Of a stretch of 56,506 nucleotides of DNA, positions 36,486 through 40,382 are shown one piece after another. The stretch spans positions 1 to 56,506 of the forward strand of contig NZ_MRCD01000060.1 in the NCBI RefSeq assembly GCF_001904745.1, given 5' to 3'. The notes under the pieces are model-generated. The model was given only the letters and a program-made list of their open reading frames with translations, searched no databases and was not told the origin of the DNA. The DNA is from Calothrix sp. HK-06 (GTDB lineage Bacteria; Cyanobacteriota; Cyanobacteriia; Cyanobacteriales; Nostocaceae). Both the position numbers and the translations under genes were made by a program. Within the stretch, counting starts at the first letter, position 1, and the number at the start of each line of letters is the position of its first letter.

Positions 36486-36867
36486 ATGATTCGCAATAGA
36501 CTTTTAGCAACCACATAGTAGTGGCGCAAAGGCACAAATGAGCGTCTCTCCACTAGTTATTGAAGCAAAAACAGAACGCTCAGAAGCTAAAGGAATTGTC
36601 ACAATTACAAATACCAGTAACGCTCCTTCACGAGTACGTATTTACGCGGAACCTTTTACTTATCACCGAGATACTGGGTTTCAAACTTTACCATCATCCC
36701 CCAACGATTTAACGCCATATTTACAGTTCTCGCCACGTGAGTTGACTATTCAACCTGGAGAAAGTCGTCGAGTACGTCTTATCGGTAACTTGGCGCCAAA
36801 TTTACCCGAAGGCGAATATAGAGAAGTCATATTTAATGAGGTATTACTACTTACCCCTACTTATTGA
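36486..36867 (+). pseudogene. PapD-like pilus chaperone remnant, truncated at both ends
   Basis: The ATG at 36486 begins a signal peptide that hits two stops within about 12 codons. In another frame, from 36538, 109 codons encode a chaperone immunoglobulin domain: MSVSPLVIEAKTERSEAKG, FSPRELTIQPGESRRVRLIG and LPEGEYREVIF. The second domain is missing: the frame ends at TGA 36865, which overlaps the first codons of the desaturase gene. The chaperone normally precedes an usher gene, which is absent here. A deletion has joined the chaperone to the desaturase operon. Confidence 0.65.
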
Positions 36868-37769
36868 GCCGATACGATTTACACATTACTGCTCATCATC
36901 ACAACTGGCGCCTTCTTACATTCGTGGTTTTATATGTCACAACTGCTTATAGTGCTTTTGCGGTATCTCAAACAATTATAAATCCTTGGGGATACTTGAT
37001 TTGCTTGCCGTTTTATCTAGTTGCGGCAGCTTCATTACATGGAATTAGTTTATTCACCCATGAGGGAGTGCATGGAGTTCTTCATGGTAATTCAGTATGG
37101 AATCGTATACTAAGTATTATTTGTGCTTTACCTGTTGGACAAAATTACTCAGCATATAAAGTCTTACATCTTAAACATCATAAGCATTTGGGCTTAAAAG
37201 GCGACCCTGACCATTATAGTAATTACACGTGTAGGACTTGGTTACAATTTTTGATGTACTGGGGGCGTCTAATTATTGGTTATCCAGTCTATTTAGTGGC
37301 AATTCCAATTTTAGGGTTTCGTCAAGGTGATACTCAAGATAAAGTTTGGATTGCAATTGAAGTTATTTCGCTCTTGATTATTGCTACAGCGCTAATGATG
37401 GCGCCAATCAATATCAACTTGATAATACATGGTTGGTTGATACCAATGGTGTTTATTAATACGATGGTGAATATTCGCGGTATGAGTCAGCACACGCTAT
37501 TAGAGCATGAGTTTGATACTATTCGCGGTACACGGACTATTCTTACAAACCGAGTTACACGCTTTTTCATGTGTAACGAAAATTACCATCTTGAACACCA
37601 TTTGTATCCTGGTGTGCCTTGGTACAATTTACCACGTTTACATCATGAACTCAAAGATGAACTAATATCCAAAGGCGCCCCGTTTATTCCTTCGTATTTT
37701 GCATTTGTACGTGATTTTGCTGTTACTAGCTTACAAAAATCACCTGCTGGTACCGTTGCTATTAAATAA
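36864..37769 (+). CDS. Membrane fatty acid desaturase/hydroxylase family protein
   Basis: A 301-residue integral-membrane diiron enzyme. Histidine boxes are H66EGVH70, H102xxH105H106 and H242xxH245H246, with another conserved histidine at 210. Hydrophobic segments lie near 20-60, 130-150 and 165-200. It could desaturate, hydroxylate or otherwise oxidise an acyl chain or other lipid. The start is uncertain: TTG 36864 is used here, no in-frame ATG lies upstream before a stop, and the codons overlap the end of the chaperone remnant. It is the first of four tightly packed genes with a diiron-like oxidase, a DUF3419 protein and a GNAT, so its substrate may be that pathway's intermediate (inference). 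Confidence 0.85.
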   Translation: MSRYDLHITAHHHNWRLLTFVVLYVTTAYSAFAVSQTIINPWGYLICLPFYLVAAASLHGISLFTHEGVHGVLHGNSVWNRILSIICALPVGQNYSAYKVLHLKHHKHLGLKGDPDHYSNYTCRTWLQFLMYWGRLIIGYPVYLVAIPILGFRQGDTQDKVWIAIEVISLLIIATALMMAPININLIIHGWLIPMVFINTMVNIRGMSQHTLLEHEFDTIRGTRTILTNRVTRFFMCNENYHLEHHLYPGVPWYNLPRLHHELKDELISKGAPFIPSYFAFVRDFAVTSLQKSPAGTVAIK

Positions 37770-37784
37770 TTATTATCTAAATAT

Positions 37785-38525
37785 ATGCAGGCATTTATAT
37801 CAAAGCCAGTATTTGCAATTACTAAAACACCAGAATTATCCTGGGAAGAACTAATCGAATTACCAACATTAGAAGCTGCCATAACGCAAGTTGCTTTCGT
37901 ATACGATTTTAGTAAGCATCCTTACTTTATCTGGATGAATGAGGAAGCTACAACACGCGATACTTTTCTTGAGAGTCAACTACCTTTTAGTTTTGCCGTT
38001 GAGTCATTTTCTCAAGCATTAGCAGCAGTTCTTGCACGTGTACAGTTTCTGGAAGCGCGACTGCCTCTTTTCGCGAATATTGCTGAGGAACATGGTTATG
38101 GCAATCTTTTACGTTCCCATAAATTTACTTTTCGTCAATATTTACAAGCTTTGGGAGCTTCTGAAGTTGAATTAAATACACCTTGCACTACTCCTGTATT
38201 AGCTTTTAATCAATCGATTTTAACTTATTGCCTGACTCAAAATCCTGAAGCAGGCGCCGCGATGCTGTGTATAATCGAATATTTATATGTAGGTATTAGC
38301 GCTTCGATTGCTAGTACTCTACAACAACGGCTCTGGACAATCCCTGGTAGTCAGTCGCATTACACTACTCACGAAAAACTTGATACCGAACACGCTAGAG
38401 ATTTAATGAATGTGGCAACCCCAGCTTGGAACACAATGGTATCACGTTCTCAAGTTGCCCAAGCCCTTGTCCTCGGCGCCTACTATTTTTGGAGTTTGTA
38501 TAATGATTTGCGCCCCACCGTCTGA
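37785..38525 (+). CDS. Haem-oxygenase-like diiron protein (iron-containing redox enzyme family)
   Basis: A 246-residue all-helical protein of the TenA/haem-oxygenase-like fold. The central AEEHGYGNLLRSHKFTF motif (residues 100-116) is typical of the HDO group, and THEKLDTEH (195-203) gives the third-helix ligands. Likely metal residues are E102, H112, E165, H196, D200 and H203. Relatives include UndA (fatty acid to alkene), BesC (amino-acid C-C cleavage) and CADD. It follows the desaturase by 15 bases and its last 23 bases overlap the DUF3419 gene. No substrate can be assigned; an oxidative cleavage or desaturation step on a lipid or amino acid is a reasonable guess. Confidence 0.78.
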   Translation: MQAFISKPVFAITKTPELSWEELIELPTLEAAITQVAFVYDFSKHPYFIWMNEEATTRDTFLESQLPFSFAVESFSQALAAVLARVQFLEARLPLFANIAEEHGYGNLLRSHKFTFRQYLQALGASEVELNTPCTTPVLAFNQSILTYCLTQNPEAGAAMLCIIEYLYVGISASIASTLQQRLWTIPGSQSHYTTHEKLDTEHARDLMNVATPAWNTMVSRSQVAQALVLGAYYFWSLYNDLRPTV

Positions 38526-39582
38526 TATTTCATTTTCCCAAGTTCGTGAAGACCCTACGATTGAACTACAGGTTATCAAGCAATTAACCCAAACGCAAAA
38601 TCATCCATTGCGAGTACTAATAATTGCGTCAGGAGGATGTACAGTACTAAGTTTACTGTCATCTCCACATATAGAACATATTGATGCCGTAGATTTAAAT
38701 CTTGCACAGCTTCATTTAGTTGAATTACGACGACAAGCATTATTACATTTACAACTCGAAGAACAACTAGATTTAATCGGTGCCACTAAAATAACTCAAG
38801 CCGAACGGGTTAACCTATACAATCAAATCGCATCTCAACTGCCAATCTCAACTCGAAATTACTGGGATGCACGAATTGAACAAATTACTTTTGGTGTAAA
38901 CCAAGTAGGCAAATTCGAGCAACTGTTTCGCGAATTATCTGCGAGCTTTACTGCATCAGGTCTTAACCCATTACGCAACTCAGACACCGTAACTTCTCAT
39001 CCACTATGGCAGCAAATTTTTGAAATTGTCTTTGAACGTAGTAAGCTAGCACGCATTTTTGGTGATGCTGCCGTTAATTACTCTATGGATAGAAGTTTTG
39101 GTACACATTTTGCTGATGTTTTTGCCAAAGCTTTACATAAATACACAATGGCAAATTACTTTCTAACTCAAGTTTGGAGTGATTCTTATTCCTATGGATT
39201 TGATGGTGTACCACTTTACCTGCAACCAGATACCCAAATCTCAATTCGAGAACTTGGAACCTCAAGATTACACCTACATCAAGGCGCCTTTGCTGAAAAA
39301 ATGCTCGAACTAGCAACAAGCCAACCTTATGATTTAATTCAATTTTCTAATATTTCTGACTGGATGCCCCCTAATGATTTAGATGAAATGCTTGAAAATG
39401 CCGTACATTGCTTAAAACCTGGTGGTGCATTAATTGGACGGCGCCTTAATGGCGACCATCATCTTGCTTCAGTCATGGCTAAACACATTTATATAGATAA
39501 ACAACTTAATTACGAACTTTTAGAGTCTGACCGTTCGTTCTTCTATCGTGAAGTAGTTGTAGGGTGGGTACAAAAAATATGA
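38503..39582 (+). CDS. DUF3419 (BtaA-like) SAM-dependent 3-amino-3-carboxypropyl transferase candidate
   Basis: A 359-residue protein when started at ATG 38503, which has GGAG 8 bases upstream; the frame is open further upstream inside the previous gene. A Rossmann SAM site is visible as VLIIASGGCTVLSLL and then IDAVDLNLAQL. Later stretches RSFGTHFADVFAKALHKYTM and YGFDGVPLYL, and DLIQFSNISDWM plus CLKPGGALIGRRLN, fit the DUF3419/BtaA pattern. BtaA attaches the 3-amino-3-carboxypropyl group of SAM to diacylglycerol in betaine lipid synthesis (family knowledge). Here it overlaps both neighbours (23 and 4 bases). The acceptor is unknown. A BtaB-type N-methyltransferase is absent, so betaine lipid is unlikely to be the end product. 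Confidence 0.75.
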   Translation: MICAPPSDISFSQVREDPTIELQVIKQLTQTQNHPLRVLIIASGGCTVLSLLSSPHIEHIDAVDLNLAQLHLVELRRQALLHLQLEEQLDLIGATKITQAERVNLYNQIASQLPISTRNYWDARIEQITFGVNQVGKFEQLFRELSASFTASGLNPLRNSDTVTSHPLWQQIFEIVFERSKLARIFGDAAVNYSMDRSFGTHFADVFAKALHKYTMANYFLTQVWSDSYSYGFDGVPLYLQPDTQISIRELGTSRLHLHQGAFAEKMLELATSQPYDLIQFSNISDWMPPNDLDEMLENAVHCLKPGGALIGRRLNGDHHLASVMAKHIYIDKQLNYELLESDRSFFYREVVVGWVQKI

Positions 39583-40382
39583 AATTCCACCGTATTGCTC
39601 CCGCAGAGCGCAAGATGTTTCAAGAAGGAATCATTAGCATTGAAACAATTGCGAAATATCCTCTAGGAAAAGATTTCTTTCAAATAGATCACGGTCTAGA
39701 TTACTTTGCTTTTTTTGACCGTCTTGGCAAAGTTAATTACTACGTAATGCACGAAAATAATATTGTTGCGGCTGCAGGTGCTGGTATACTACGTAAAATT
39801 TCATACCAGCAAGGAGAGGCAGCGCTTTCTGCATGGTACCTTTGTGATTTAAAAGTTCACCCTAATTACCAACGTCGTAATTTATCTTTACGAATTCTTA
39901 GCCATGCCATTGTAGATGGTATTCGTGAATGCAGTTGTGGTTATATGATTTCAATGAATCCTGGAGACGGTAGTGCTAACCGTTGGGTAAAAGTTATTGA
40001 TAAATACTCCAGAATTAAATTTACTACATCTACCCAATTAGGTATTTATAGTTTAGATGCGGCGACAATGAGTGATGTTGCTCCACTAATTGTTAAACAC
40101 AGGGGCGATATTTCTTACATGAGTCTTAAAGGCATTAAAGACTTACGCTTGCAAAGCACAGGAAATATTTTGCCACTCGTTCACGTCCAGTGGGGAGCAA
40201 ATGTTGAGAAAAGCACACCAGAAGTTATACCGGGGTATAATCATATGTTTTGTGTACCTAGTGATGATGAACTTGCACGGGCATTAGGACGTTTTGATAT
40301 ATATCCAGGCGCCAATGCAAGTGTTGTGAGTCATGGAATGGATAATAGTGATTGGCGTTTTATTTTAACTAGTGATATATAA
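39579..40382 (+). CDS. GNAT-type acetyl/acyltransferase
   Basis: A 267-residue protein from ATG 39579, which overlaps the preceding stop as ATGA, showing coupled translation. The GNAT core is in residues of about 15-170: WYLCDLKVHPNYQRRNLSLRIL is the acyl-CoA-binding strand-loop, though the usual RxxGxG/A lacks its glycines (QRRNLS). The C-terminal 90 residues are an extra domain of unknown type (HVQWGANVEKSTPE, DDELARALGRFDIYPG). It would acylate an amine or hydroxyl, perhaps the amino group of a carboxypropyl product made by its neighbour (inference). It ends the four-gene operon; the next gene is convergent with an 8-base gap. Confidence 0.75.
   Translation: MKFHRIAPAERKMFQEGIISIETIAKYPLGKDFFQIDHGLDYFAFFDRLGKVNYYVMHENNIVAAAGAGILRKISYQQGEAALSAWYLCDLKVHPNYQRRNLSLRILSHAIVDGIRECSCGYMISMNPGDGSANRWVKVIDKYSRIKFTTSTQLGIYSLDAATMSDVAPLIVKHRGDISYMSLKGIKDLRLQSTGNILPLVHVQWGANVEKSTPEVIPGYNHMFCVPSDDELARALGRFDIYPGANASVVSHGMDNSDWRFILTSDI

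Follow-up and report, generated by a model that had tools for sequence, protein, structure and literature searches.

A stretch of 56,506 nucleotides from Calothrix sp. HK-06 (contig NZ_MRCD01000060.1; "the window" below denotes this whole stretch) carries four genes, head to tail on the + strand at 36864-40382, that encode a desaturase-like membrane oxidase, a haem-oxygenase-like diiron enzyme (HDO), a DUF3419 protein and a putative GNAT acyltransferase. Our data show that these four genes form a conserved unit. We give roughly even weight to the reading that the unit is a self-contained, patchily spread cassette, with a core of HDO, DUF3419 and GNAT to which a membrane diiron oxidase has been added in most cyanobacterial carriers, and that it would carry out aminocarboxypropyl transfer, oxidation and N-acylation; its product is probably an undescribed fatty, amino-acid-containing small molecule. 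Beyond what a preliminary description of this DNA contained, we present a probable three-gene core, a predicted GNAT fold resembling that of N-myristoyltransferase (NMT) together with a fixed C-terminus, and a truncated first gene in the window.

Results and Discussion

Organization of the four-gene cassette

The four open reading frames (ORFs) of the window are:

36864-37769, + strand: membrane FA_desaturase-like diiron oxidase with histidine boxes (PF00487), 5'-truncated in Calothrix sp. HK-06
37785-38525, + strand: HDO, a haem-oxygenase-like diiron oxidase/oxygenase (PF14518)
38503-39582, + strand: DUF3419 protein (BtaA-related), putative S-adenosylmethionine (SAM) 3-amino-3-carboxypropyl transferase, overlapping the HDO gene by 23 nt
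39579-40382, + strand: putative N-acyltransferase with a double-GNAT fold and the fixed C-terminus ...TSDI, overlapping the DUF3419 gene by 4 nt

ORF calling reproduced the coordinates of the preliminary description and its spacing of +15, -23 and -4 bases. The frame given there for the desaturase also held, but its TTG at 36864 is not the native start, the 5' end of the gene being absent by comparison with a relative (see below). With regard to family membership, Pfam placed three of the proteins above cut-off, namely the desaturase (FA_desaturase, 146.5 bits; cut-off 29.7), the HDO (Haem_oxygenas_2, 62.1 bits; cut-off 28.9) and DUF3419 (PF11899, 127.3 bits; cut-off 28.2), whereas the GNAT model scored 18.1 bits, under its cut-off of 20.7, and the assignment of the fourth protein is backed by a structure model of medium confidence (pLDDT 72) in which a GNAT fold was found.

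Distribution among cyanobacteria

DUF3419 was searched for in 388 genomes of the class (E value up to 0.001), matches of 1e-40 or better being taken as strong, with the 1.4e-40 of genome G287 rounded in. Matches were found in 31 genomes, 17 strong and 14 distant, and GNAT, also searched for in 388 genomes, was present in exactly the 17 genomes with a close DUF3419. These carriers belong to eight genera and six families, nine of them to a single genus; by frequency, GNAT occurs in 9 of 26 genomes in the genus of G158 and in 8 of 192 in the family of the window strain, whose 9.99-Mb assembly holds one DUF3419 match. The nearest named relatives by DUF3419 (94-95% identity) are Calothrix sp. PCC 7716, PCC 7103 and FI2-JRJ7 and Dulcicalothrix desertica PCC 7102.

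Adding four named genomes to the 17 gave 21 loci, at 16 of which all four genes stand in the same order and on the same strand. Three loci are broken by contig ends (G383, G287 and G272; breakage is assumed for G287, where a partial DUF3419 and a partial GNAT lie on two contigs), and two are without parts of the cassette: in G180, HDO, DUF3419 and GNAT stand without a close desaturase, and G246 has only GNAT and a DUF3419 that matches from residue 25 on. A family-level search yielded eight matches, four of which (G649, G711, G721 and G729) lie where the named loci L034, L035, L033 and L032 do by coordinates, and added a further genus, G645, with all four genes in order. The proposal that the genes are kept together in other genomes is thus borne out. 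The same search touched G644, where a 44-residue C-terminal GNAT remnant keeps the fixed end motif (L123:3632-3763) and no DUF3419 match was found.

Besides the four genes, no ORF family occurred in more than five of the 21 loci within up to ~8-10 kb per side (less on short contigs), and the set therefore looks complete; three extra ORF families, in two or three loci each, extend past close kin. In a sample from five lineages, the ten ORFs that flank the cassette most closely are mutually unrelated by Pfam and include phosphoglucose isomerase, CpeT, glutamine synthetase and a histidine kinase. Such patchy spread in differing surroundings fits transfer or repeated loss. Ratios of non-synonymous to synonymous substitution (dN/dS) ranged from 0.10 to 0.39 over 24 comparisons. 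Around the distant DUF3419 genes of the other 14 genomes, the stretches of 13 loci, most with up to ~1.5 kb of flank, contained no HDO, GNAT or desaturase.

For the alignments described below, start codons of orthologues were chosen by us, the 5'-shortened DUF3419 of L049 was left out of the DUF3419 set and the intact HDO of L046 out of the HDO set; the contigs of L048 and L051 hold no whole DUF3419 or GNAT.

Relatives beyond cyanobacteria and the probable core

A plasmid of Mycobacterium riyadhense carries DUF3419, HDO, GNAT and an RND transporter gene consecutively, in the order DUF3419-HDO-GNAT. Profile alignment with hhalign related these DUF3419, HDO and GNAT proteins to those of the cassette with E values of 4e-20, 1e-29 and 5e-13, the GNAT homology extending over approximately the first 113 residues only. 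The 18.7-kb mycobacterial stretch yielded no relative of the desaturase; because this set and G180 both lack the desaturase, the core is probably HDO, DUF3419 and GNAT, with the desaturase optional. As annotated, the mycobacterial DUF3419 opens with motif I; a segment similar to the conserved N-terminal motif precedes it in a different frame (L074:7700-7990).

Among plasmids, cyanobacterial queries matched two records for DUF3419, none for GNAT, seven for HDO (E value up to 0.001) and eight for the L032 desaturase (E value up to 1e-8), M. riyadhense being the only record that matched both DUF3419 and HDO. With the mycobacterial proteins as queries, GNAT matched its own record only and DUF3419 its own and two others. 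No relatives were found among viral contigs by HDO or GNAT alignment. On the Streptomyces plasmids L075 (8232-9618) and L076 (7232-8630), an HDO with ~30% identity to that of the cassette follows the gene of an EF-hand protein; in the two of six Streptomyces HDO records that were inspected, no DUF3419 is annotated adjacent.

The DUF3419 protein

What is known of DUF3419 proteins concerns mainly betaine lipids. The predicted model of the cassette protein has a class I SAM-dependent methyltransferase fold, in agreement with the SAM-binding fold expected in the preliminary description. It shares with BtaA (SAM:diacylglycerol 3-amino-3-carboxypropyl transferase) the family model, the predicted SAM fold and a conserved motif I and aspartate, and differs in being linked to HDO and GNAT with no methyltransferase found adjacent. 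Its motif I reads ASGGCT and its N-terminal motif FSQVREDP, and it is 25-26% identical to three other cyanobacterial DUF3419s aligned. In a tree of 19 rows, a cassette group of 11 and a BtaA-like group of seven were both supported; the tree, in which long branches meet, gives the mycobacterial row no supported place, and we assign that protein to the cassette because of its common ASGGCT motif and its neighbouring genes.

BtaA is assigned to betaine lipid in a passage of PMC10491745. The N-methyltransferase BtaB was not found among the ten flanking ORFs of five lineages, four of which have no Pfam match, or among the three scanned neighbours in the window, the search being confined to these neighbourhoods.

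A second DUF3419 gene set came to light in the course of this work: in Roseinatronobacter (L115:523-8507) and in a cyanobacterium (L055:4165-9842), both by Pfam, a BtaA-like DUF3419 has as its neighbour an enzyme resembling pyruvate phosphate dikinase. The annotation of the Roseinatronobacter set adds UbiA and an AMP-binding enzyme, and the neighbours in L052 and L053 are similar by eye only.

The two diiron proteins

In the HDO, six putative metal ligands are kept in a three-histidine, three-carboxylate pattern, and neither the 19 cyanobacterial rows nor the mycobacterial homologue vary at E101/E102, H112, E165, H196, D200 and H203. By sequence, the closest solved structure is CADD/p-aminobenzoate (pABA) synthase (E value 2e-10), and the cassette ligands fall at positions matching those that we take to be the metal ligands of CADD. 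The cassette HDO differs in having four extra residues between the first two ligands and an operon with DUF3419 and GNAT. The sacrificial Tyr27 of CADD falls opposite an invariant Tyr47, with a one-residue shift possible; that position is often aromatic across the wider HDO fold, and we draw no inference from it. Lys152, to which sections of the review PMC13108848 ascribe the role of amino donor in CADD, has no equivalent, an invariant Ile175 taking its place. The review also counts about a dozen HDO enzymes of known function among more than 10,000.

Elsewhere in the family of the window strain, L112 (5310-8985) and L114 (3471-7198) share the order methyltransferase, HDO, H-NOX (HNOB) and HNOBA histidine kinase (Pfam on L112 only), an arrangement that ties an HDO to a nitric-oxide-type sensor.

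The membrane oxidase has three histidine boxes (H66-H70, H102/H105/H106 and H242/H245/H246) that are invariant in 18 aligned sequences. It resembles the membrane diiron hydroxylases and ketolases GntB, CrtR and CrtW in family and histidine boxes, with GntB as its best NCBIfam match, but lies far below the equivalog cut-offs (GntB, NF041365, 69.1 bits against 380; CrtR 54 against 475; CrtW 34 against 350).

The GNAT protein

The best fold matches of the GNAT model include NMT, HisAT and Eis, NMT structures making up most of the list; tabtoxin resistance protein is also among them. The end residue is identical in 19 of 19 orthologues, whereas the other three proteins end variably. In NMT the catalytic base is the C-terminal carboxylate of the enzyme itself, according to passages of PMC7048800 and PMC4964394. 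The likeness to NMT, HisAT/NAT16 and Eis lies in a predicted two-domain GNAT fold and, for NMT, in a fixed C-terminal end whose carboxylate is catalytic there; the differences are an identity of ~4-15%, a length of 267 residues in the cassette protein and a substrate that is presumably a small molecule.

Truncated 5' end of the copy in the window

Two further features adjoin the cassette in the window:

36538-36867, + strand: truncated ORF, pilus-chaperone-like by eye, running up to the desaturase; outside the pathway
36840-36875, no strand: 36-nt filler at the junction, unmatched between two blocks that match L035

The locus of Calothrix sp. PCC 7103 (L035) served as reference. An upstream block (window 36528-36839) corresponds to L035:2697-3008 at 99% identity, and the match restarts at window 36876 (L035:6374), 57 nt beyond the desaturase ATG, continuing at 95%. 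It is at 36876 that sequence homologous to the relatives starts in the window desaturase, which has thus lost its first 19 codons and its native upstream region with respect to L035. In all, ~3.4 kb of L035 is absent, comprising the end of the pilus-chaperone-like ORF, a 2.6-kb ORF, the desaturase upstream region and the 19 codons. The truncated ORF, for which no Pfam model scored above cut-off, matches with 103 of its 109 residues at 98% within a 278-residue ORF (L035:2620-3456). Farther upstream, L035:1422-2697 (~1.3 kb) has no counterpart between window positions 36514 and 36528. By eye, L033, L034 and L036 have an element like 'tccagttaaaaaagttgcaca' upstream, which is not at the corresponding place in the window.

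Either the 5' part was truly deleted or the assembly is wrong at this place. Since what is left of the desaturase frame is open, with a dN/dS of 0.14-0.39 in comparisons with five relatives (L034 against L035 gives 0.30), the change would be recent, tolerated or an artefact of assembly. Expression of the cassette in the window strain may now depend on upstream transcription. When the 250 bases preceding each of 18 desaturase starts were scanned on one strand for NtcA and PhoB half-boxes, no shared box emerged: the sole NtcA-like half-box is that of the window itself, within the truncated upstream ORF, and a PhoB-like half-box (CTTAACC) occurs in one region.

Proposed pathway and alternative explanations

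Starting from a probable three-gene core with no other widely shared genes, we propose a short pathway that would draw on SAM, O2, a donor of acyl groups and an acceptor present in both cyanobacteria and mycobacteria. DUF3419 would transfer the 3-amino-3-carboxypropyl group of SAM to the acceptor, giving a homoserine-like amino-acid head; the soluble HDO would oxidise this amino acid; the double-GNAT protein would attach an acyl group, probably a fatty one, to the amine, with the carboxylate of its own C-terminus perhaps serving as the base, as in NMT; and the membrane oxidase, as an optional step, would hydroxylate or desaturate the increasingly hydrophobic product. The substrates, step order and product are all inferred; what the data show is the gene order and co-occurrence, the predicted DUF3419 and GNAT folds, the conserved putative metal sites and the fixed GNAT C-terminus.

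Several observations weigh against this proposal. The activities assigned are read from sequences and predicted models. The fold matches of DUF3419 are ordinary SAM enzymes covering about half of the model, with low Foldseek TM-scores (at most 0.36 by query among the 50 matches listed), and aminocarboxypropyl transfer therefore rests on DUF3419 family membership. The 19 GNAT sequences with the fixed end are related to one another, pLDDT is below 50 over the last eight residues of the GNAT model, so that their reach into the active site is unsupported by the model, and an NMT-like fold alone is no proof of a fatty acyl donor. The cassette is incomplete in G180 and G246, the mycobacterial DUF3419 copy may be broken, and G171 keeps a lone orthologue of the cassette HDO (L111:9118-9855) after a very large kinase-like ORF, with no DUF3419 or GNAT match genome-wide.

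We also considered four other explanations. One is membrane-lipid remodelling, in which DUF3419 would be a true BtaA acting on diacylglycerol while GNAT and the oxidases modify the homoserine lipid head or the acyl chains. Membership of the DUF3419 family, the suitability of two oxidase families and an acyltransferase for lipid chemistry, and the RND transporter that follows the three genes in Mycobacterium all speak for it; we nevertheless think it unlikely, given that no methyltransferase is among the ten closest flanking ORFs scanned from five lineages, and given the separate grouping and different N-terminal motif of the cassette DUF3419 relative to the other cyanobacterial DUF3419s tested, and the PhoB-like half-box in only 1 of 18 upstream regions (one strand). 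Less probable still would be a rhizobitoxine-like antimetabolite, made by desaturating an O-alkyl-homoserine ether to an enol ether (vinylglycine) and acetylated by GNAT for self-protection. An enzyme of the FA_desaturase family acts on dihydrorhizobitoxine, an O-alkyl-homoserine, and both the tabtoxin resistance protein among the GNAT fold matches and the amino-acid hydroxylase GntB, as best curated match of the desaturase, would suit such a compound. The desaturase, however, is the dispensable part of the cassette, yet would be essential in such a pathway, and GNAT is retained in both cyanobacterial loci missing other parts, though G171 retains HDO only.

Pairs of N-oxygenase and GNAT occur in siderophore pathways, and a hydroxamate-type metallophore could arise if HDO N-oxygenated an amine and GNAT acylated the hydroxylamine on an aminocarboxypropyl scaffold. 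Although N-oxygenation by HDO is known chemistry (sections of PMC13108848), the only ligand set recognised in the cassette HDO is of three histidines and three carboxylates, and the 21 loci have no widely shared neighbouring family that could serve as a receptor or uptake system; we see only a slim chance of this route. The clearest contrary evidence concerns a self-sacrificing, CADD-like HDO that would yield a pABA-like cofactor: in spite of CADD being the nearest solved structure, the replacement of the lysine amino donor by an invariant isoleucine and a score of 22.7 bits with the NCBIfam CADD model (TIGR04305), whose cut-off is 200, make it very improbable.

Novelty and significance

Among the papers listed from the open-licence literature, none pointed to a cluster combining the DUF3419, HDO, GNAT and desaturase families, consistent with the earlier view of the system as a candidate undescribed one; the sections covered of the HDO review PMC13108848 mention no DUF3419. 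Our most far-reaching proposal, which we advance tentatively, is that the proposed cassette makes a new natural-product class, a SAM-derived, N-acylated, doubly diiron-oxidised amino-acid lipid built by only three or four enzymes; a transferase of the BtaA type would thereby have moved from membrane-lipid synthesis to specialised metabolism and a bacterial double-GNAT protein would acylate a small molecule by NMT-like C-terminal-carboxylate catalysis. The cassette is small enough to be expressed whole in a laboratory host, and a minimal three- or four-gene unit found again and again in distantly related cyanobacteria, and related to genes of a mycobacterium, is a tractable route to a new reaction for both HDO and DUF3419. 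If our reading is true, aminocarboxypropyl transfer by the BtaA family would extend past betaine lipids.

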